Part shown: piece after piece, positions 9,624 to 18,087 of the stretch
Position numbering within the stretch: position 1 is the first letter of the stretch
Layout of the letters: every line of letters begins with the position of its first letter
Virus record (IMG/VR): IMGVR_UViG_3300042485_003342
Coordinates: 1 to 24,904 of that record
Source: a virus
Direction: 5' to 3' (one strand)
DNA length: 24,904 nucleotides
Translations under genes and position numbers: made by a program
Notes under the pieces: generated by a model
The model's database searches: none
The model's input: the letters and a program-made list of their open reading frames with translations, nothing else
What the model was told of the DNA's origin: nothing

Positions 9624-10643
9624 ATGAGTAATCTATTTAAACGAGCAGCAGTCTGCACAGATATACACTTTGGACTAAAAAGCAACAGTCAGACACACAA
9701 TGAAGATTGCTTAAACTTCATAAAATGGTTTACAGCCAAAGCCAAAGAGGAAGGTTGTGAAACAGCTTTCTTTCTTGGTGACTGGCATAACAATCGTGCC
9801 AGTATCAATATTGTTACTCTTAACTATAGCCTTAGAGCTTTGGAGCATTTAAATGACAATTTTGGCGCTGTTTATTTTATCCCTGGCAATCACGATCTTT
9901 ATTATCGTGACCGACGTGATGTCCAAAGTGTTGAATGGGCACGGCACTTGCCTAACATTCATATATGTAACGATTGGTATCATAGCGGCGACGTGGTTAT
10001 TGCTCCTTGGCTCGTTGGTGATGATTATAAGCGGATTCCTAAGCTGAGTGCCAAGTACATGTTTGGACATTTTGAATTACCAACATTCTACATGAATGCA
10101 ATGGTGCAGATGCCCGATCATGGCGATGTCAAGCGAGAAGACTTTACTGGCATTGAACATGTATTCACCGGACACTTCCATAAAAGACAGACACAAAAGA
10201 ATATTACATACATCGGTAACTGTTTCCCGCACAACTATGCAGACAATCACGACGATGAACGTGGCATGATGGTGCTGGAGTGGGGCAACGATCCAGTGTA
10301 CCATTCCTGGCCCGATCAACCCAGATATCGTGTGTATCAACTAAGCGATGTGCTTACTAATACAGATAGACTATTGCACAAGGGCATGCATGTGCGTGTG
10401 AATCTTGATGTAGACATTAGTTACGAAGAAGCAACCTTTATTAAAGAAACATTTGTTAGTACCTACGACCTTAGAGAAATTACACTTATTCCTCAAAAAG
10501 TAACAAACGAAGATATTAACTACGATATTACAGGAAACATAATGTTTGAAAGTGTAGACACTATTGTTACCAATCAGCTTACAAATATACAAAGCGAACA
10601 GTACAATGCCAAATTGCTAATGGATATATATAAAAATTTATAA
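9624..10643 (+). CDS. 47: Recombination nuclease subunit gp47 (Mre11/SbcD-like)
   Basis: The 339-residue product matches T4 gp47 in length (339) and in the calcineurin-like phosphoesterase motifs: CTDIHFGLKS (Asp13, His15), FFLGDWHNNRAS (Asp53, His55), YFIPGNHDLYYRD (Asn89, His90, Asp91) and FTGHFHKRQT for the C-terminal metal-binding histidines. With gp46 it forms an ATP-regulated exonuclease that resects DNA ends and feeds recombination-dependent replication. Its stop overlaps the start of a radical SAM gene (TAATG), so the expected direct junction with gp46 is interrupted. No ribosome-binding site is visible before the ATG. Confidence 0.95.
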   Translation: MSNLFKRAAVCTDIHFGLKSNSQTHNEDCLNFIKWFTAKAKEEGCETAFFLGDWHNNRASINIVTLNYSLRALEHLNDNFGAVYFIPGNHDLYYRDRRDVQSVEWARHLPNIHICNDWYHSGDVVIAPWLVGDDYKRIPKLSAKYMFGHFELPTFYMNAMVQMPDHGDVKREDFTGIEHVFTGHFHKRQTQKNITYIGNCFPHNYADNHDDERGMMVLEWGNDPVYHSWPDQPRYRVYQLSDVLTNTDRLLHKGMHVRVNLDVDISYEEATFIKETFVSTYDLREITLIPQKVTNEDINYDITGNIMFESVDTIVTNQLTNIQSEQYNAKLLMDIYKNL

Positions 10644-12181
10644 TGATTAATTTATCAAAACATTCAGAATATGGTGATCATTGGTTATATGATAGTTTGG
10701 AAGGTTTTAAACAAGAAGAAATATCAGCTAATTTTAAATTAAAGGTATTTTACACTTCAGATAATTTTAACAACAACGACTCAATTGGCTTAACGCTTTG
10801 GAAATTTTATGAATATATATCAATTATTGACTTTCCGTGTTTTTTTATTCATTTATATACCAACAAGTCAGATATAAGTAATGATCTAAAATTTTTAAAG
10901 AATACGTTCACTCCTAACGATGTAGACATTAACTTACATAGTATTAGCGGGTCTTTTAATAAAATATTTAAGAATAAAGATTCATTTTGTATTTTACCAT
11001 GGATAAGTTTACATATTAACGCTCAGGGACTCGTAGGACCTTGCTGTCAATTTAACGAACATTATCCTTTAGGAAATGTAAAAAATGATAATTTACTTGA
11101 CATCGTTAACAGTGCCAAATTAAAAGAAGTTAGAAAACAAATGTTATCTCAGCAGAGGCCTAACATTTGTAGTAATTGTTGGGTACAGGAAGACAACAAT
11201 GCTGTTTCTTTGCGTCAAACAAGTAATCAGGTGTTTAGTAAATACCTTCCTTTTAAAGAAAATACTAATACAGATGGTTCTATAGATAGTTTTAAATTAA
11301 AGTACATTGATTTTCGAGCATCTAATATATGTAACATGAAATGTAGAATGTGCGGAGGCAATTATAGTTCAAAAATAGCACAAGAAGATCTTATACTATA
11401 TCCAAACATTACAATTAATAAAAATTTTATAGAAAATAAACTAAACAAACAATCAATAAAAAATGTTCTTATCTTCATTGAAAACAACATTGACGAATTA
11501 GATACTATATATTTTGCTGGCGGCGAACCATTGATAATGTATGAACATTATAAAATTTTAGATTTATTACTTGAACATAATAAACATGATTTAGACATTA
11601 GTTACAATTCAAATTTATCAACATTAAAATTTAAAAACTACAATTTATTAGATTATTGGCAAAAGTTTACAAATATTACCCTACACGCAAGTATTGATTT
11701 GATAGGCGATCGGGCTTCTTATGTACGCTCGGGAGTAAATTATGATACCATTGAAAACAATTACAACTTAATTAAACACTTAGTTGATTTTAAAATTGAT
11801 AGCACTTTAACAATTTATAATGCATTTAATTTAATGGACTTACAACAGTATTGGATAACAACATACAATATTTCTCCCACGAAATTTAACATAAGATTAT
11901 CGATGCTGCCCCCGTATGTAATGTCATGCCAAGTATTACCTGATCATTTTAAACAACAAGTCACAGAAAAAATAAAAAATCATATAAATTGGTTAGAACA
12001 AATAGTTGATAGTAATTCTCTTATACAAAGATGGCACGATGTGTTACAATTTTTAAATGCTAAAGATCAAAGTCATTTACTTAAAGAATTTTTTAAATTA
12101 AATGACACAAAGGATGCGTATAGAAATGAAAAATTTACTGACATTTTTCCAGAATATAAAGACTTAAAAAAATATGTTTAA
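10643..12181 (+). CDS. Radical SAM protein with N-terminal twitch-like cysteine domain, between gp47 and gp46
   Basis: The product is 512 residues. The radical SAM core has SNICNMKCRMCGGN, a canonical CxxxCxxC (Cys230, Cys234, Cys237) that would hold the SAM-cleaving 4Fe-4S cluster, and the SAM-binding segment IYFAGGEPLIMY. Ahead of it at residues 113-185 lies an auxiliary cluster region: FCILPWISLHINAQG, GPCCQFNEHYPLGN and ICSNCWVQED (Cys116, 134, 135, 176, 179), typical of twitch-domain radical SAM proteins in which this domain precedes the core. Substrate unknown. It overlaps gp47 by one base and gp46 by eight. The DNA is visibly richer in A and T than gp47 and gp46 on either side, suggesting separate acquisition. 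Confidence 0.85.
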   Translation: MINLSKHSEYGDHWLYDSLEGFKQEEISANFKLKVFYTSDNFNNNDSIGLTLWKFYEYISIIDFPCFFIHLYTNKSDISNDLKFLKNTFTPNDVDINLHSISGSFNKIFKNKDSFCILPWISLHINAQGLVGPCCQFNEHYPLGNVKNDNLLDIVNSAKLKEVRKQMLSQQRPNICSNCWVQEDNNAVSLRQTSNQVFSKYLPFKENTNTDGSIDSFKLKYIDFRASNICNMKCRMCGGNYSSKIAQEDLILYPNITINKNFIENKLNKQSIKNVLIFIENNIDELDTIYFAGGEPLIMYEHYKILDLLLEHNKHDLDISYNSNLSTLKFKNYNLLDYWQKFTNITLHASIDLIGDRASYVRSGVNYDTIENNYNLIKHLVDFKIDSTLTIYNAFNLMDLQQYWITTYNISPTKFNIRLSMLPPYVMSCQVLPDHFKQQVTEKIKNHINWLEQIVDSNSLIQRWHDVLQFLNAKDQSHLLKEFFKLNDTKDAYRNEKFTDIFPEYKDLKKYV

Positions 12182-13943
12182 GATTAAAACACTCGCAGTT
12201 AAAAATTTTATGAGCGTGGGCAATGCTACCCAGGCTGTTCAGTTTGATCGCAAGGATCTTACTCTTGTATTGGGGCAAAATTTAGATCTTGGCGGAGATG
12301 ACACGGGAGCAAGAAATGGAACTGGCAAAACAACCATTATCAATGCACTCAGCTATGCGCTATATGGTTCAGCTTTAACCAACATTAAAAAAGATAATCT
12401 TATCAACAAAACAAATGGTAAGAACATGTTGGTTACCATTGAATTTGAAAAAGATGGTATTGATTACAAGATTGAACGCGGTCGTAAATCAAACACAATG
12501 GCTTTTTATGTAGGCGGACAAGAGCAGCAGATTACAGACGAAAGTCAAGGGGATAGTAGAGAAACACAAGCAGAGATTGAACGCATGCTGGGTATGAGCC
12601 ACGACATGTTCAAACATATTGTGGCACTTAATACCTATACCGAGCCTTTCCTTGCACTGAAAGCAAACGATCAAAGAGCTATCATTGAGCAGCTACTTGG
12701 TATCACTATGCTTAGTGAAAAAGCAGATTCTCTTAAGGAACAATTAAAAGCAACCAAAGATACCATAACACAAGAAGAATATCGTATTAAAGCAGTTACA
12801 GATGCTAACGCTCGAATACAAGAACAAATTGAAGCTACACGCCGTAGACAAACCATGTGGCGTACAAAAAACACCAATGACTTGTTAGAACTTGAAAGAG
12901 CGTTGAGTGTCATTGGCGATTTGGATATTGATCAAGAACTACGTAATCATGATTTACTCAATGAACACAATGAAAAAACAAATAAAATAAGAGAGATATC
13001 TCGTTGGCGAATAGCTTGTGAAACTGACCAAGTAAAACTATTAGTACAATTAGACAAATTAAAAGCAGAAATAGAAAAACTTAAAAAACACGAGTGCTAT
13101 GCTTGCGGGCAAGCAATACATGATACCAAGCATGAACAGGTCTTAGAAGAAAAACGAAATACACTTAAAGAAACTTCTTTGCAGTATCTTGCTAATGACG
13201 AACAACTACACGCACACATTGAAGCTATTAATCTATTAGGCGAACCGGGATTGATACCAAAAGTTTTTTACGACAATAAAGAAGATGCTATTAATCATAA
13301 AAATACTGTAGCAAATTTAAAACAACAACTAACAACAAAACAGAACGAGGTAGATCCGTATGCAGAACAGATTCAAGAAATGGAAACGCAGGCTGTTGAA
13401 GAAATTAATTATGACTTAATCAATGAGCTGTCTAATGTTCGCGAGCACCAAGAATTTTTATTAAAGTTATTAACCAACAAAGACAGTTTTATTCGCAAAC
13501 GTATCATTGATCAAAATTTAAGTTATCTTAATGCAAGACTCAGCCAATATCTTGATCGCATTGGGTTGCCGCATACTGTCAAGTTCCAAAATGATCTTAC
13601 AGTGAGTATCGAAGAGTTGGGCCGTGAACTTGATTTTGATAATTTGAGTCGAGGAGAACGTAATAGGCTTATTTTAAGTTTATCATGGGCTTTTAGAGAC
13701 GTTTGGGAAAGTTTATATCAACCAATCAATCTCTTGTTTATAGACGAAGTAATTGATACTGGTATGGACAGTTCAGGTGTAGAAAACAGTTTGGCTATTC
13801 TAAAGAAAATGGCCAGAGAAGGTAATCGTAGCGTGTGGTTAGTCAGTCACAAAGACGAACTGGCCGGTCGCGTGAACAACGTGCTAAGTGTTGTTAAAGA
13901 AAATGGATTTACCAGTTATAATACAGATGTTGATATAAAATAA
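12174..13943 (+). CDS. 46: Recombination nuclease subunit gp46 (Rad50/SbcC-like ATPase)
   Basis: The product has 589 residues (T4 gp46: 560). ABC/SMC-type motifs are in order: Walker A GARNGTGKTT at residues 45-54, a coiled-coil arm interrupted by a zinc-hook CYACG at about residue 308, the signature LSRGERNRLILSLSWAF, Walker B LLFIDEVID, and a late His switch (WLVSHKDEL). It partners gp47 in end resection and recombination-dependent replication. It starts inside the last codons of the radical SAM gene and ends in TAATG with the next radical SAM gene, so this whole block is likely one transcript. Confidence 0.96.
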   Translation: MFKIKTLAVKNFMSVGNATQAVQFDRKDLTLVLGQNLDLGGDDTGARNGTGKTTIINALSYALYGSALTNIKKDNLINKTNGKNMLVTIEFEKDGIDYKIERGRKSNTMAFYVGGQEQQITDESQGDSRETQAEIERMLGMSHDMFKHIVALNTYTEPFLALKANDQRAIIEQLLGITMLSEKADSLKEQLKATKDTITQEEYRIKAVTDANARIQEQIEATRRRQTMWRTKNTNDLLELERALSVIGDLDIDQELRNHDLLNEHNEKTNKIREISRWRIACETDQVKLLVQLDKLKAEIEKLKKHECYACGQAIHDTKHEQVLEEKRNTLKETSLQYLANDEQLHAHIEAINLLGEPGLIPKVFYDNKEDAINHKNTVANLKQQLTTKQNEVDPYAEQIQEMETQAVEEINYDLINELSNVREHQEFLLKLLTNKDSFIRKRIIDQNLSYLNARLSQYLDRIGLPHTVKFQNDLTVSIEELGRELDFDNLSRGERNRLILSLSWAFRDVWESLYQPINLLFIDEVIDTGMDSSGVENSLAILKKMAREGNRSVWLVSHKDELAGRVNNVLSVVKENGFTSYNTDVDIK

Positions 13944-15442
13944 TGTATGCAGTAATATTAACCGTTCCAAGAGTGGCAGCATTACGACCGGCAGCGGCTC
14001 CGGCAATTATCAAAAGCTTATTCACAAATTTAAATTTAGAAAGTAAAATACTTGATATAAATTTAGATTACTTTACAGATTTTAAAAACAGTATTGATAC
14101 CAATTTGTTTGCACAAGTAGATGAATTCTTATTTGTAAAAAATAAAAATTTAAATAGCGAAGGTCAAGCAGTTCTTGACAGTTTTATTGTTAAATGGATA
14201 GACACAGTCATTTCTTATAAACCACAAAAATTATTCATTAGTGTGTTCAGCTGGCAAGCGCAAAAGTTTACAGAAGAATTTTTAAGAAATTTTAGACAAA
14301 CTTGTGATATTGAAGTTATAATTGGGGGGCAAGGTTTAATTAGAGAAGAAAACGGAAGTTACAGTACCAGGCCAGAATTTGCTCATTACCTTAAAAAACA
14401 AGGCTTAATAGATCATTGGATACGTGGCGAAGCAGAAACTACCATACCCGAGATTGTCAAAGGCAACTACAACGTTGCAGGAGTTGACACAGATTTTTTG
14501 GCAGAACGCAGTGTAGTACAAGATCATACTTATATGGATTTTTCAGATTTTGATATTTTAAAATATCAAAGTGGATATGAAACTGGTGTGTTACCCATGG
14601 AAACCAGCAGAGGTTGTGTTCGCCATTGTGTGTTTTGTGACATACCCACAATGGCCGGAGGTTTTAGATTCAAACGCGGAGACCGCTTGGCTGCAGAAAT
14701 GATTCATTACTATGAAACTTATGGTGTGCGTAACTATTTTTTCCATGACGCTTTATGCAACGGCAGTGTGAGAGATTTTAGACAATTTAATCAGGTACTT
14801 GTAGATTACTATGCAAAAAATAACTTGCCCGATCGTTATTTGACTTATAGCAGCCATGCAATTGTACACAATAGACAAGCAATGAAACCTATAGATTTTG
14901 AGTTAATGGGTCGTGCAGGTGCCGAAACTCTTGTGATTGGCGTAGAGACAGGTAGTGATCGTGTACGCCAACATATGAAAAAAGGTTATGTTGGTGTTGA
15001 TCTTGATTACAACATGCAACAGTATAGTGCAAACAAAATGCAGGTATACTTGTTGATCATTGTGGGTTTTCCTACTGAAACTGATCAAGATTTCCAAGAA
15101 ACCTTAGACATGTTAACCAAGTATCAACGATATGTGGCAGACGGGACCATAATTGGTGTAAATCTTGGTACCACATTGACTATTGAACAAGGTACAGAGA
15201 TGTACAACAAACCTGATACTCTTAAAATTATTGGCATTGACAACAAACATCCGCAAGGTACTGAATGGATATGTCAAGACAATCCAGAATTAACCTACAA
15301 AAAACGTATCATGCGTAGGATACAGGCACAAGAACATGCTGTCAATTTGGGTTACACTTTCTGGAAAGGTGACGATCAAATGAAAATCTTAATGGACAAA
15401 TATCAAGAACGTTTATCTAAATTGGCCGGAGTAATTCATTGA
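13943..15442 (+). CDS. Radical SAM protein with probable B12-binding-type N-terminal domain
   Basis: The 499-residue product has an N-terminal half (1-200) with alternating beta strands and helices (KLFISVFSWQAQ, IEVIIGGQG, DHWIRGEAETTIPEI) in the pattern of cobalamin-binding Rossmann domains of B12-dependent radical SAM enzymes. The core follows: METSRGCVRHCVFCDIP gives CxxxCxxC at Cys225, Cys229 and Cys232, with later ETLVIGVETGSDRVRQHMKKG and LLIIVGFPTETDQDF, both common in this class. I see no DxHxxG cobalamin-ligand motif, so if B12 binds it would be without a His lower ligand. Members do methylations, rearrangements and ring chemistry; the substrate is unknown. It overlaps gp46 (TAATG) and the next gene (TTGA). 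Confidence 0.82.
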   Translation: MYAVILTVPRVAALRPAAAPAIIKSLFTNLNLESKILDINLDYFTDFKNSIDTNLFAQVDEFLFVKNKNLNSEGQAVLDSFIVKWIDTVISYKPQKLFISVFSWQAQKFTEEFLRNFRQTCDIEVIIGGQGLIREENGSYSTRPEFAHYLKKQGLIDHWIRGEAETTIPEIVKGNYNVAGVDTDFLAERSVVQDHTYMDFSDFDILKYQSGYETGVLPMETSRGCVRHCVFCDIPTMAGGFRFKRGDRLAAEMIHYYETYGVRNYFFHDALCNGSVRDFRQFNQVLVDYYAKNNLPDRYLTYSSHAIVHNRQAMKPIDFELMGRAGAETLVIGVETGSDRVRQHMKKGYVGVDLDYNMQQYSANKMQVYLLIIVGFPTETDQDFQETLDMLTKYQRYVADGTIIGVNLGTTLTIEQGTEMYNKPDTLKIIGIDNKHPQGTEWICQDNPELTYKKRIMRRIQAQEHAVNLGYTFWKGDDQMKILMDKYQERLSKLAGVIH

Positions 15443-15954
15443 AATTAGATATCAATTTCGTGGTAGAAAGAAGATTGGGTGTACCACAAATAAAAATTAT
15501 CATTGACGATTACATAACCTTATACAACGGCGACACACTTGATAATTATGAATTTGATATAGATTTAACCAATGGTGGTCATGATTTAAAAATTATTCAT
15601 TACGATAAAAAACCCGAACATCATGTACATGATCCATATGGTAATATTGTTATAGACCGGCATATTGAAATAAAACGTATTGCATTTGATCAAGTTGATT
15701 TAGAACAAGAATTATGGGACGGAAAATTTTACCCGGTATACATGCACCGAGCAGACAATGAACCGTACTATATTTGTCCTAATTTATACCTTGGTCACAA
15801 CGGTACCTGGAAGTACGAATTTGTTACTCCGATACTACCGTGGCTGATTGCCAGTAGAAATCAAGGGCCCAAGTTGGCTAATACGATTTTTCAAACCAAC
15901 GCCAGCATACTTGAACAAGCCAAGAACTTTTTTAAAGATTTACCTGATGTTTGA
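15439..15954 (+). CDS. Conserved-looking phage protein of unknown function
   Basis: The product has 171 residues from a TTG start at 15439 that overlaps the preceding stop (TTGA) and has GGAG seven bases upstream. The sequence alternates short hydrophobic and charged strands (VPQIKIIIDDYITLYNGDTL, HDLKIIHYDK, IVIDRHIEIKRIAFDQVDL) and has an aromatic segment EPYYICPNLYLGHNGTWKYEF, suggesting a beta-sandwich. There is no signal peptide, membrane helix or catalytic motif. I believe similar proteins occur in marine T4-like phages but cannot confirm this here. Its place between two radical SAM genes suggests it could be a substrate, carrier or partner of that pathway, which is inference only. Confidence 0.65.
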   Translation: MKLDINFVVERRLGVPQIKIIIDDYITLYNGDTLDNYEFDIDLTNGGHDLKIIHYDKKPEHHVHDPYGNIVIDRHIEIKRIAFDQVDLEQELWDGKFYPVYMHRADNEPYYICPNLYLGHNGTWKYEFVTPILPWLIASRNQGPKLANTIFQTNASILEQAKNFFKDLPDV

Positions 15955-17062
15955 TTACAAAAAAATTAAAGAGTACCAATTAGAAATCACGACATACTGT
16001 AATGCTGCATGTCCGCAATGTCCTCGAAATATTCAGGGTGGTGCTATAAATCCTCACATGCCACTATTACATCTAAGTAGAGAATCAATTGACGTCACTT
16101 TTGATGTTGATCTATGCAATCACGTAGAACGTATATTTTTTTGTGGTAGTTATGGCGATCCTATAATGCACCCGGATTTCTTAGACATTCTACAAGATTT
16201 TAGAAATAAAAATCCCACGTTGTGGTTATATATACACACCAACGGCGGGGTGCATGATGAAGCTTATTGGCAAGAAATAGCCACAATAATGAATGGGTAT
16301 GGCCAGATTGATTTTGGCTTCGACGGCTTAGAAGATACTTTACATCTGTACAGACGTAACGTAAAATATGCTGTTGCTATGCGTAATGCTCGTGCATTTA
16401 TCAAAGCAGGAGGTAGAGCGCAATGGAATTACATTGTGTTTAAACACAACGAACATCAGGTCGAACAGGCAAAATCATTAAGCCAAGACTACGGATTTTT
16501 TAATTTCTTGCCAAGAAGGACCGGACGTTTTTATGATCATACCAATGAGTGCGCCTATCTAAATTGGCCTGTACATGATCGAGCCGGGCACACTGAATAT
16601 GTATTAGAAGAACCTGTAAGCGAGCAATGGCGCAACCCAAGTGTACAAAGAATAGCAGTGATTAAAAAGATGCACGGCAGTTTTAAAGAATATCTAAAAA
16701 CAACACCAATACGATGCGATGCACTATTAGGTAATAAAGTTGTAATCACAGCCGAAGGGTTGGTATTGCCTTGCAACTTTTTTGAACACAATCTGTATGA
16801 TGCAAGATTTTACAGCTTCGCTCGACCTGGAGCCAATCAAGCAAGTTTTACTGCCACTGGTAAAGTACAAGTTAAAGAATTTGTCGATCAATATAAAAAT
16901 GAATTAGATATAAACAAAAAATATCTGTCAGACATTTTTAAAAGTCATTTTTGGCGCGACTTAGTTGACAGTTGGACAGATAATAATAGAATAATGGAAT
17001 GTGCTATGACATGTGGCGAAAAGTTTACTAAAGTATGGGATCAAGGAGGATCTATTAGATGA
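15947..17062 (+). CDS. Radical SAM protein with C-terminal auxiliary cysteines (SPASM/twitch-like)
   Basis: I start this at the ATG at 15947 (371 residues), overlapping the previous stop by eight bases; an upstream in-frame ATG at 15848 lies deep inside the previous gene. The N-terminus carries the core motif directly: LEITTYCNAACPQCPRN, CxxxCxxC at Cys18, Cys22 and Cys25. FFCGSYGDPIMHPDF follows where GGEP-type SAM-binding residues usually lie. Toward the end, IRCDALLG, LVLPCNFFEH and MECAMTCGEK supply Cys residues for an auxiliary cluster, as in SPASM/twitch enzymes that modify peptides or sugars. The gene leads into the dehydrogenase through an ATGA overlap. Confidence 0.85.
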   Translation: MFDYKKIKEYQLEITTYCNAACPQCPRNIQGGAINPHMPLLHLSRESIDVTFDVDLCNHVERIFFCGSYGDPIMHPDFLDILQDFRNKNPTLWLYIHTNGGVHDEAYWQEIATIMNGYGQIDFGFDGLEDTLHLYRRNVKYAVAMRNARAFIKAGGRAQWNYIVFKHNEHQVEQAKSLSQDYGFFNFLPRRTGRFYDHTNECAYLNWPVHDRAGHTEYVLEEPVSEQWRNPSVQRIAVIKKMHGSFKEYLKTTPIRCDALLGNKVVITAEGLVLPCNFFEHNLYDARFYSFARPGANQASFTATGKVQVKEFVDQYKNELDINKKYLSDIFKSHFWRDLVDSWTDNNRIMECAMTCGEKFTKVWDQGGSIR

Positions 17063-17646
17063 AGATGTTAGTTACAGGTGGTAATAGAGGGCTTGGGCAG
17101 TTTTTATGTACTGCATTTGGCGCGGACAGTGTCAGTAGATCATCAGGATTTGATATTACCAAAGATGTAGACCAAATTGCAAAGCAAAGTTTGAATTATG
17201 ATATATTTGTAAACAATGCATTTGATGGTCCTCCTCAAGAATCTTGGGCTAATTTTGGACAGATACAAGTGCTCGAAGCAGTGTATGACGAATGGAAACA
17301 AGCTGGTAAATCAGGGTATATTTTTAATATAGGTAGTGTTGGGGAAAAAAATATTGTTGCCCGTGAGCCTGGATTTGAAACTTACCGAGTGGCCAAAGCA
17401 GCACTGTCACATGCAAGTAAACAATGCACGGCATCATTCAAAGCCAATCATGTACCATTTAAAACTACCTTAATTACACTTGATCGCTTGGACACAGATC
17501 TTAGTCGTAGTAGAGCAACATGGACAGGAAATGGCATATTATTGGGAGATGTAGCCACTTTTATCAAGTATGCCACTGGATTGGTAGCAAATACTTGTAT
17601 TGAAGAAATAACATTTTATTGTAATTTAGATTACAAGCATAACTAA
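17059..17646 (+). CDS. Short-chain dehydrogenase/reductase (SDR)
   Basis: The product has 195 residues, shorter than the usual 240-260. The NAD(P)-binding motif TGGNRGLG is at residues 6-13, NNA at 52-54, and the catalytic set is Ser93 (NIGSVGEK), Tyr109 and Lys113 (YRVAK), all canonical. The short N-terminal Rossmann half and limited C-terminus suggest a compact oxidoreductase. It overlaps the preceding radical SAM gene (ATGA) and has a strong AGGAGG upstream, so it is the best-translated-looking member of the cassette. The substrate is unknown; reduction or oxidation of a product of the radical SAM enzymes is an inference from coupling. Confidence 0.85.
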   Translation: MKMLVTGGNRGLGQFLCTAFGADSVSRSSGFDITKDVDQIAKQSLNYDIFVNNAFDGPPQESWANFGQIQVLEAVYDEWKQAGKSGYIFNIGSVGEKNIVAREPGFETYRVAKAALSHASKQCTASFKANHVPFKTTLITLDRLDTDLSRSRATWTGNGILLGDVATFIKYATGLVANTCIEEITFYCNLDYKHN

Positions 17647-17652
17647 TGCTGT

Positions 17653-18087
17653 ATGTCATGGCTATTCGAATCCACTCTTGTGGAATCACTTCCTGAAGAT
17701 TGTGTAGGATTTGTGTATTTGATAACAAATACTGTATCTGGGCGTAAGTACATAGGAAAAAAACTGGCCAAATTTTCAAAAACTACAGTAAAAACAGTAA
17801 AACTTAAAAACGGCACCAAACGGAAAAAGAAGATCAGAAGCAAAATAGATAGCGATTGGCAATTATATTATGGCTCAAACGACGAACTTAAAAAAGACAT
17901 ACAAACACTTGGCCCAGAAAATTTTACAAGAGAAATACTTTTTTACTGCAAATCAAAAGCTGAATGTTCATATATTGAAGCAAGAGAACAATTTAGACAC
18001 CAAGTCTTAGAATCAGATGATTATTATAACGGACATATACAAGTCCGTGTCCATGGCTCCCATATCAAAGGCAAATTAAGCAGTTAA
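17653..18087 (+). CDS. GIY-YIG nuclease-domain protein
   Basis: The product has 144 residues. Residues 19-37 read GFVYLITNTVSGRKYIGKK, a GIY-YIG motif (VYL then YIG with usual spacing), followed by a basic Lys-rich loop, DWQLYYGSNDEL, ENFTREILFYC and YIEAREQF, where a Glu and later DDYYNG fit the family's metal and structural residues. Such proteins in T4-like phages are annotated as endonucleases; whether this is a homing enzyme or a nuclease with another role is not clear. It is the last gene of the plus-strand block, six bases after the SDR with no strong ribosome site, and directly precedes the structured RNA. Confidence 0.75.
   Translation: MSWLFESTLVESLPEDCVGFVYLITNTVSGRKYIGKKLAKFSKTTVKTVKLKNGTKRKKKIRSKIDSDWQLYYGSNDELKKDIQTLGPENFTREILFYCKSKAECSYIEAREQFRHQVLESDDYYNGHIQVRVHGSHIKGKLSS

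Follow-up and report, generated by a model that had tools for sequence, protein, structure and literature searches.

The four overlapping genes behind gp46 in the analysed window, a 24,904-nucleotide stretch of viral DNA (IMG/VR record IMGVR_UViG_3300042485_003342), form two separately inherited modules and not one four-gene unit: the radical SAM protein RSSP with the reductase SDR (module A), and the B12-type radical SAM protein RSB12 with its neighbour U171 (module B; Table 1). We hold it to be plausible, if finely balanced, that both modules tailor carbohydrates and remodel a host-surface or virion sugar. The data below directly support that the genes are intact, paired, co-evolving, and under selection, that RSSP and SDR are naturally fused in some contigs, and that U171 has the fold predicted for it.

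Table 1. Genes of the cassette and its borders in the window.
Feature	Description	Position	Strand	Basis
twRS	N-terminal-twitch radical SAM protein between gp47 and gp46	10643..12181	+	NF033640, PF13186
gp46	SbcC-like recombination nuclease subunit; upstream slot border	12174..13943	+	phrog_77, 348 bits
RSB12	B12-type radical SAM protein, 499 aa; predicted catalytic subunit of module B	13943..15442	+	PF04055, 4.5e-15
U171	Predicted CBM60/36-like beta-sandwich protein, 171 aa; obligate RSB12 neighbour	15439..15954	+	AlphaFold2, PDB fold matches
RSSP	Module A radical SAM protein (371 aa) whose C-terminal cysteines are of the auxiliary (twitch-like) type	15947..17062	+	PF04055, 4.7e-10
SDR	Short-chain dehydrogenase/reductase, short (195 aa); module A	17059..17646	+	PF00106
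SegE	SegE-type GIY-YIG endonuclease; downstream slot border	17653..18087	+	PF19835, 116.8 bits

The serial overlaps given in the preliminary description are confirmed by direct reading at 13943–17646. TAATG (13941–13945) holds both the stop of gp46 and the start of RSB12, RSB12 and U171 meet in TTGA, U171 and RSSP overlap by 8 bases, and RSSP runs into SDR through ATGA. Dozens of IMG/VR contigs show this gene order, the SegE-type endonuclease keeps its position downstream of the cassette across slots, and the radical SAM cysteines are present in all complete homologues. Thus, the gene set is far beyond chance, and neither of the outcomes named in advance as counter-evidence, scattered single homologues or relatives without catalytic cysteines, is seen. 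Moreover, purifying selection acts on each of the four genes (dN/dS 0.06–0.12). RSB12, RSSP, and twRS each combine the CX3CX2C motif with a PF04055 core above cut-off, which places them in the radical SAM superfamily, and their Pfam and NCBIfam types agree with the three architectures proposed earlier, including that of the gene between gp47 and gp46. The latter, twRS, belongs to NF033640 (N_Twi_rSAM; 361.1 bits, cut-off 170) and carries its PF13186 match at the N-terminal side (residues 116–180); it is linked to the cassette and lies outside both modules. The carriers are widespread T4-like phages of freshwater and marine origin, in which the cassette stands beside recombination genes.

The division into two modules emerges from a survey of 59 slots with gp46 as upstream border (38 after dereplication). 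RSB12 and U171 are absent from 13 of the 38, and elsewhere they stand after SDR, are duplicated, or appear in inverted order. The distances of RSB12 and RSSP are uncorrelated (mirror-tree r = 0.12), whereas those of RSSP track the gp46 phylogeny (r = 0.79). A single linear pathway, in which all four genes lead to one product, would account for the overlapping reading frames and for an order fixed across many contigs, but both the slot survey and the mirror trees disfavour such an indivisible arrangement, which we regard as very unlikely. Of the coupled cassette proposed initially, the functional coupling stands, while the single unit gives way to two independently inherited pairs.

Within module A, pairing is nearly absolute. 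SDR is the next gene after RSSP in 80 cases and is naturally fused to it in five contigs (L015, L016, L081, L092, and L094). The only two RSSP genes without SDR behind them are those of a paralogue in L005/L006, which has a different SDR directly upstream. An independent search seeded with SDR, which has 307 relatives in IMG/VR, finds RSSP directly upstream in 32/32 testable loci. In RSSP, C17, C21, C24, C256, C275, C351, and C355 are invariant among 32 aligned sequences; the last four, with C275 in a GX4C motif, correspond to a SPASM/twitch auxiliary cluster, and this pattern recurs in 87/87 homologues. The PF13186 score itself is 12.5 bits, under the gathering score of 21.5. Six RSSP copies seem to lack CX3CX2C, but this is an ORF-calling artefact caused by skipped upstream non-ATG starts. 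SDR narrowly passes PF00106 (26.8 bits, cut-off 26.6); its glycine motif, Ser93, Tyr109, and Lys113 are conserved in 22 aligned sequences, and TGxxxGxG and YxxxK occur in 79/79 complete homologues, as defines the SDR family. The catalytic residues are thus intact, the radical SAM cysteines as well as the SDR triad.

Among HMMs, RSSP scores best against the tungsten-enzyme maturase TIGR04317 (57.5 bits), and further SPASM peptide enzymes match as well. A sequence search of the PDB with RSSP gives no match; in a structural search, BlsE ranks first among PDB folds for the RSSP half, and the matches behind it include the peptide maturases SuiB, SkfB, and PqqE. These HMM and fold matches would suit a RiPP-type maturation, with a phage peptide from another locus as the substrate of the radical SAM enzymes and SDR reducing dehydro-residues. 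We consider this unlikely, as the NCBIfam scores of RSSP and RSB12 fall far under every functional or curated cut-off, RSSP begins directly at the radical SAM core without an N-terminal leader-binding extension, and U171 is a predicted folded beta-sandwich with variable cysteines. Further, the overlapping genes leave no room for a precursor gene, and none is found inside the cassette.

Module B is tightly paired as well. U171 adjoins RSB12 in 71 of 73 cases, both exceptions lying at contig ends, and the two proteins co-evolve closely (mirror-tree r = 0.96). CX3CX2C of RSB12 is invariant in 26 aligned sequences and present in 64/64 complete homologues. By its best NCBIfam matches, RSB12 is a B12-type radical SAM protein, with 79.1 bits to the PhpK-type P-methyltransferases of TIGR04479, of which it is not a member (cut-off 600), and 76 bits to TIGR04072, likewise far under cut-off. 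A profile search matches chains of OxsB, CysS, RimO, and MiaB. The N-terminus has no Pfam B12-binding match, and the alignments to OxsB (query residues 74–370) and CysS (86–291) extend into this part.

The AlphaFold2 model of U171 (pLDDT 87.6) resembles 2xhh and 2xfd as its best two PDB matches in Foldseek (probability 1.00), a moderate match with target TM-scores of 0.62–0.68 and E-values of 3e-3 and 5e-3. With moderate confidence, the model thus suggests a beta-sandwich whose nearest counterparts are CBM60/36, carbohydrate-binding modules that depend on calcium. At the sequence level, U171 has no significant match in Pfam, PHROG, or NCBIfam, including the CBM60/CBM36 profile, none in the PDB at E ≤ 1, and a profile scan of viral contigs gave no usable matches. 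The preliminary description had considered U171 as substrate or scaffold. A RiPP precursor or substrate is ruled out by fold, length, and the cysteine content, which varies among homologues; a binding or scaffold role is favoured on the basis of the predicted fold.

A wider bacterial search yields only a handful of RSSP relatives, seven of them distinct (L099–L104 and L183). In L099, an SDR gene lies directly upstream of the radical SAM gene; at E ≤ 1e-5, no other gene of that genome matches the profile of the phage SDR. The pair sits in a nucleotide-sugar/exopolysaccharide locus, with a GT2 transferase, an NDP-sugar dehydrogenase, a Gfo/Idh oxidoreductase, a methyltransferase, a hexapeptide transferase, and a DegT aminotransferase as neighbours. 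The comparison with bacterial gene clusters suggested earlier thus delivers a clear sugar locus for the pair, but in 1/7 distinct relatives only; the neighbourhoods of L103 and L183 show no sugar context. In L064, the cassette might seem to have been transferred to a bacterium, but the genes on the extended contig read as nrdA/B, PAAR, and curli-type proteins, which pelagimyophages also have. A phage in which the cassette has been relocated is therefore the likelier reading; here, a C-terminal gp46 remnant is attached to a cupin gene. Isolate phages carry distant RSSP relatives (22–28% identity over part of RSSP); those of Mosig and CP220 have genes for a sugar aminotransferase, a carbamoyltransferase, or a nucleotide-sugar transferase in their vicinity.

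Phages employ radical SAM enzymes for base modification (QueE-like). With this precedent, the recombination genes adjoining the slot, and the resemblance of RSB12 to lipid B12-radical SAM enzymes (TIGR04072, HpnJ) and to PhpK, the cassette might instead modify phage DNA or nucleotides, or serve lipid or cofactor synthesis. The sugar locus of L099, the CBM-like U171 model, and the scores of RSB12 and RSSP under all functional cut-offs speak against this alternative and make it improbable. Among the targets proposed initially, the sugar or surface kind is likeliest; the exact target is still an inferred one.

The biological role that we infer, along with the carbohydrate substrate, the type of reaction, and the use of cobalamin, is as follows. 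RSSP, with one extra iron–sulfur cluster, would abstract a carbon-bound hydrogen from a sugar or nucleotide sugar, giving an oxidised (keto) or dehydrated intermediate. SDR would reduce this intermediate with NAD(P)H, so that the net product of module A would be an epimerised or deoxygenated sugar. RSB12 would act as a radical SAM enzyme of the B12 type, with C-methylation as its most likely reaction, and the CBM-like U171 would hold it on the glycan. The end product would most likely reside in a host surface glycan, where it would block co-infecting phages, or in a virion glycan. In a more specific version, which we put forward tentatively and with considerable doubt, the near-core, sometimes fused radical SAM–reductase makes a new sugar, and the exchangeable RSB12 with its lectin-like targeting subunit modifies assembled glycans.

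The carbohydrate reading draws on fusion and pairing of RSSP and SDR, the L099 locus, the U171 fold, and the co-evolution of RSB12 and U171, together with the gene neighbours in Mosig and CP220, the AprD4/AprD3 and GenD1/GenK precedents, and the pelagimyophage host-recognition island (see below). Against it stand the single sugar locus among the bacterial relatives, the PDB sequence search without a match to RSSP, the peptide maturases among the RSSP fold matches, the moderate U171–CBM similarity, and a cassette that contains no glycosyltransferase of its own in the window.

Since 2010, phage genomes rich in radical SAM genes have been on record with no function demonstrated for them (PMC2853527), and 12 such genes are reported for one T4-like genome (PMC5332604). 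With the fusion, two obligate partners, and a CBM-like subunit, "some radical SAM genes" become two enzymes of two components each that are open to testing. The near-core RSSP–SDR pair in a common aquatic phage lineage suggests a radical-chemistry step important for infection, probably aimed at surface glycans. If true, RSB12 and the lectin-like U171 would represent a previously undescribed type of two-part glycan C–H functionalising enzyme.

Like the Campylobacter phages CP220/CPt10 and the pelagimyophages, the carriers are T4-like and rich in radical SAM genes arranged as exchangeable cassettes, and the relevant passages on pelagimyophages place these cassettes within a host-recognition island with LPS genes (PMC7029224). 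The RSSP–SDR pair, its fusion, and the RSB12–U171 pair are not described in the passages on radical SAM genes of these accounts (PMC2853527, PMC7029224). Unlike twRS, RSSP and RSB12 do not belong to NF033640. U171 shares a predicted beta-sandwich with CBM60/CBM36, and glycan binding is putative; unlike these glycoside hydrolase domains, it lacks a sequence match to the family and stands free, as the partner of a radical SAM enzyme of the B12 type. BlsE, a radical SAM enzyme of blasticidin S biosynthesis, provides the closest fold for the RSSP half, but RSSP is paired with SDR and has no sequence-level PDB match, and BlsE chemistry is not indicated for it. Sugar precedents exist for both modules: GenD1/GenK are B12 radical SAM methylases acting on sugars, and in apramycin the radical SAM diol dehydratase AprD4 is followed by its obligate NADPH reductase AprD3 on the sugar ring (PMC5461906). 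The AprD4 model NF033070 does not match RSSP and gives RSB12 13.7 bits (cut-off 500). RSSP differs from AprD4 in its auxiliary-cluster cysteines and in that it can be fused to its reductase. By analogy, the best reading is that RSSP and SDR act like radical SAM/reductase pairs such as AprD4/AprD3, with which they share the genetic coupling to an SDR-type reductase, here through fusion and near-absolute pairing.

The cassette lies 3' of gp46 in a T4-like phage whose 24.9 kb record carries a gp55-like sigma factor, gp47, gp46, portal, and tail genes, the portal sharing ~50% identity with its counterparts in jumbo phages PA5oct and Phosso. Four serially overlapping genes encode a 499-residue B12-type radical SAM protein (RSB12), a 171-residue protein (U171), a 371-residue radical SAM protein with C-terminal auxiliary cysteines (RSSP), and a 195-residue short-chain dehydrogenase/reductase (SDR). 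The junctions read in the sequence match those of the preliminary description, and the gene that it placed inside gp47-gp46 genuinely belongs to the N-terminal-twitch radical SAM family.

Genes of the cassette and its downstream border
Feature	Position	Strand	Remark
RSB12	13943-15442	+	
U171	15439-15954	+	
RSSP	15947-17062	+	
SDR	17059-17646	+	
GIY-YIG gene, SegE type	17653-18087	+	directly after cassette

By their conservation, all four are working genes, because catalytic residues are kept and median dN/dS is 0.06-0.12 for each. RSSP keeps C17/C21/C24 (radical SAM) and C256, C275, C351, and C355 (auxiliary) in all 32 sequences compared, and RSB12 keeps C225/C229/C232 in all 26 (some only 24-28% identical to that of the window); the loss of catalytic cysteines considered earlier is thus absent. 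The nucleotide-binding and YxxxK motifs occur in 79/79 SDRs.

Gene order in relatives, reconstructed by simple ORF calling plus clustering, resolves the cassette into two genetically coupled pairs. We surveyed 59 slots between gp46 and the GIY-YIG gene (38 once near-identical copies were removed), selected for the presence of RSSP. RSSP is accompanied by SDR, while RSB12 and U171 occupy 25 of the 38; in the remainder their place is empty or filled by other genes. Three such genes without Pfam match (c34, c35, and c36 in L033, L035, L036, L042, and L043) lie between gp46 and RSSP, apparently as an alternative module. Since the slots were selected for RSSP, an SDR-seeded search served as independent test of the pairing: RSSP is directly upstream in 32/32 SDRs having upstream sequence, two further SDRs lie at contig ends, and one locus (L146) is fused. 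RSSP and SDR also form one fused protein in L015, L016, L081, L092, and L094. Only a paralogue in L005/L006 lacks the adjoining SDR, with a different SDR directly upstream. RSB12 has a U171-type neighbour in 71/73 cases, both exceptions being contig ends, and in 14/16 of a further set, the last two adjoining a 130-residue protein of marginal U171 similarity (E 0.009, 0.02). Distance matrices of RSB12 correlate with those of neighbouring U171 (r=0.96) but hardly with those of same-contig RSSP (r=0.12, a figure lowered by paralogues), while RSSP distances track gp46 (r=0.79) and SDR (r=0.74). From slot survey, pairing counts, and correlations, RSSP and SDR behave as a near-core pair of the phage lineage and RSB12 and U171 as a mobile pair.

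In most relatives the variable slot ends at the SegE-type gene, and homing by its endonuclease could drive the exchange of cassettes. In L064 (7526-7927), the end of a cupin-like gene directly before a relocated four-gene copy reads like the last gp46 residues, a scar of whole-block movement.

Searches of IMG/VR yielded 119 RSSP and 307 SDR relatives (80 kept of each). None of the four genes has a complete homologue among annotated phage isolates, which yielded one partial match to RSB12 and, at 22-28% identity, partial matches to RSSP in Pelagibacter phage Mosig and Campylobacter phages. The richness of T4-like phages in radical SAM genes is already known (PMC5332604, PMC2853527); the RSSP-SDR pair, its fusion, and the RSB12-U171 pair are not described in the literature searched, which excluded most subscription journals. 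A Polynucleobacter-1 RNA (RF01718; 18087-18218, +; 106.7 bits, E 1.5e-22) begins where the GIY-YIG gene ends and recurs in 4/7 relatives searched (L002, L005, L024, L035); the motif may be phage-borne. As it is listed from Burkholderiales of fresh water and estuaries (PMC2864571), it gives a hint of a host among freshwater Burkholderiales.

In larger relatives, each contig has 9-16 radical SAM genes. Parts of 75, 61, and 137 kb contigs (L105, L107, L112; 6-10 radical SAM genes each, larger contigs up to 16) contain islands of about five closely spaced twitch-type genes, interspersed with genes resembling, by look, SGNH hydrolases and glycosyltransferases. A two-gene pair (c16/c15; L005 13691-14624 and similar), with a short radical SAM core (~210 aa) followed by a SPASM-like domain (~105 aa), resembles a radical SAM/SPASM enzyme divided over two genes. 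Downstream of the cassette, L065 (12857-13910, -) and related contigs encode an MTA/SAH-type (5'-methylthioadenosine/S-adenosylhomocysteine) nucleosidase and an adenine phosphoribosyltransferase, possibly recycling 5'-deoxyadenosine. Published pelagimyophage genomes have their radical SAM cassettes in a host-recognition island that also contains LPS genes (PMC7029224). We count these nucleosidase genes, the radical SAM-rich relatives, and the LPS island as supporting context.

Full-length bacterial RSSP relatives (34-37% identity) occur in a few MAGs of Deltaproteobacteria, Myxococcales, Acidobacteria, and Hyphomicrobiales. In one of them (L099), the SDR immediately upstream is the only hit of the phage SDR profile in the 2.2 Mb genome (E<=1e-5), and the surrounding GT2 glycosyltransferase, nucleotide-sugar dehydrogenase, Gfo/Idh oxidoreductase, methyltransferase, hexapeptide transferase, and DegT aminotransferase mark a nucleotide-sugar/exopolysaccharide locus. 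Genes adjoining L100-L102 are GT-A transferase-like by eye, without Pfam match, and glycosyltransferase-like genes lie near L104; L103 and L183 show no sugar context around the relative. These neighbourhoods give a real, if thin, clue to a sugar target.

The AlphaFold2 model of U171 is a confident beta-sandwich (pLDDT 87.6) whose complete fold is common to three uncultured-phage proteins. Its top two PDB matches are a CBM60 and a CBM60/36 circular-permutation entry (probability 1.00, E just 3e-3 to 5e-3). In CBM60, a calcium ion contacts the sugar hydroxyls (PMC4444583); the likeness of U171 to CBM60 is one of predicted fold. In the model of the fused RSSP-SDR protein (pLDDT 86.6), the radical SAM half best matches BlsE, followed by RiPP maturases, and the SDR half resembles ordinary reductases of sugars and ketones, a modelled fold that by itself does not name the substrate.

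These data show the coupling within the pairs and the predicted fold, and from them we infer substrate, reaction, cobalamin use, and biological role. A carbohydrate target has roughly an even chance, and any specific reaction ranks below it. In the best-supported model, RSSP would oxidise or dehydrate a sugar and SDR would reduce the product, for net epimerisation or deoxygenation; optionally, a B12-type radical SAM reaction would be aimed at a glycan by U171. The proposed order resembles that of AprD4/AprD3 on paromamine, where a radical SAM step is likewise followed by reduction (PMC5461906).
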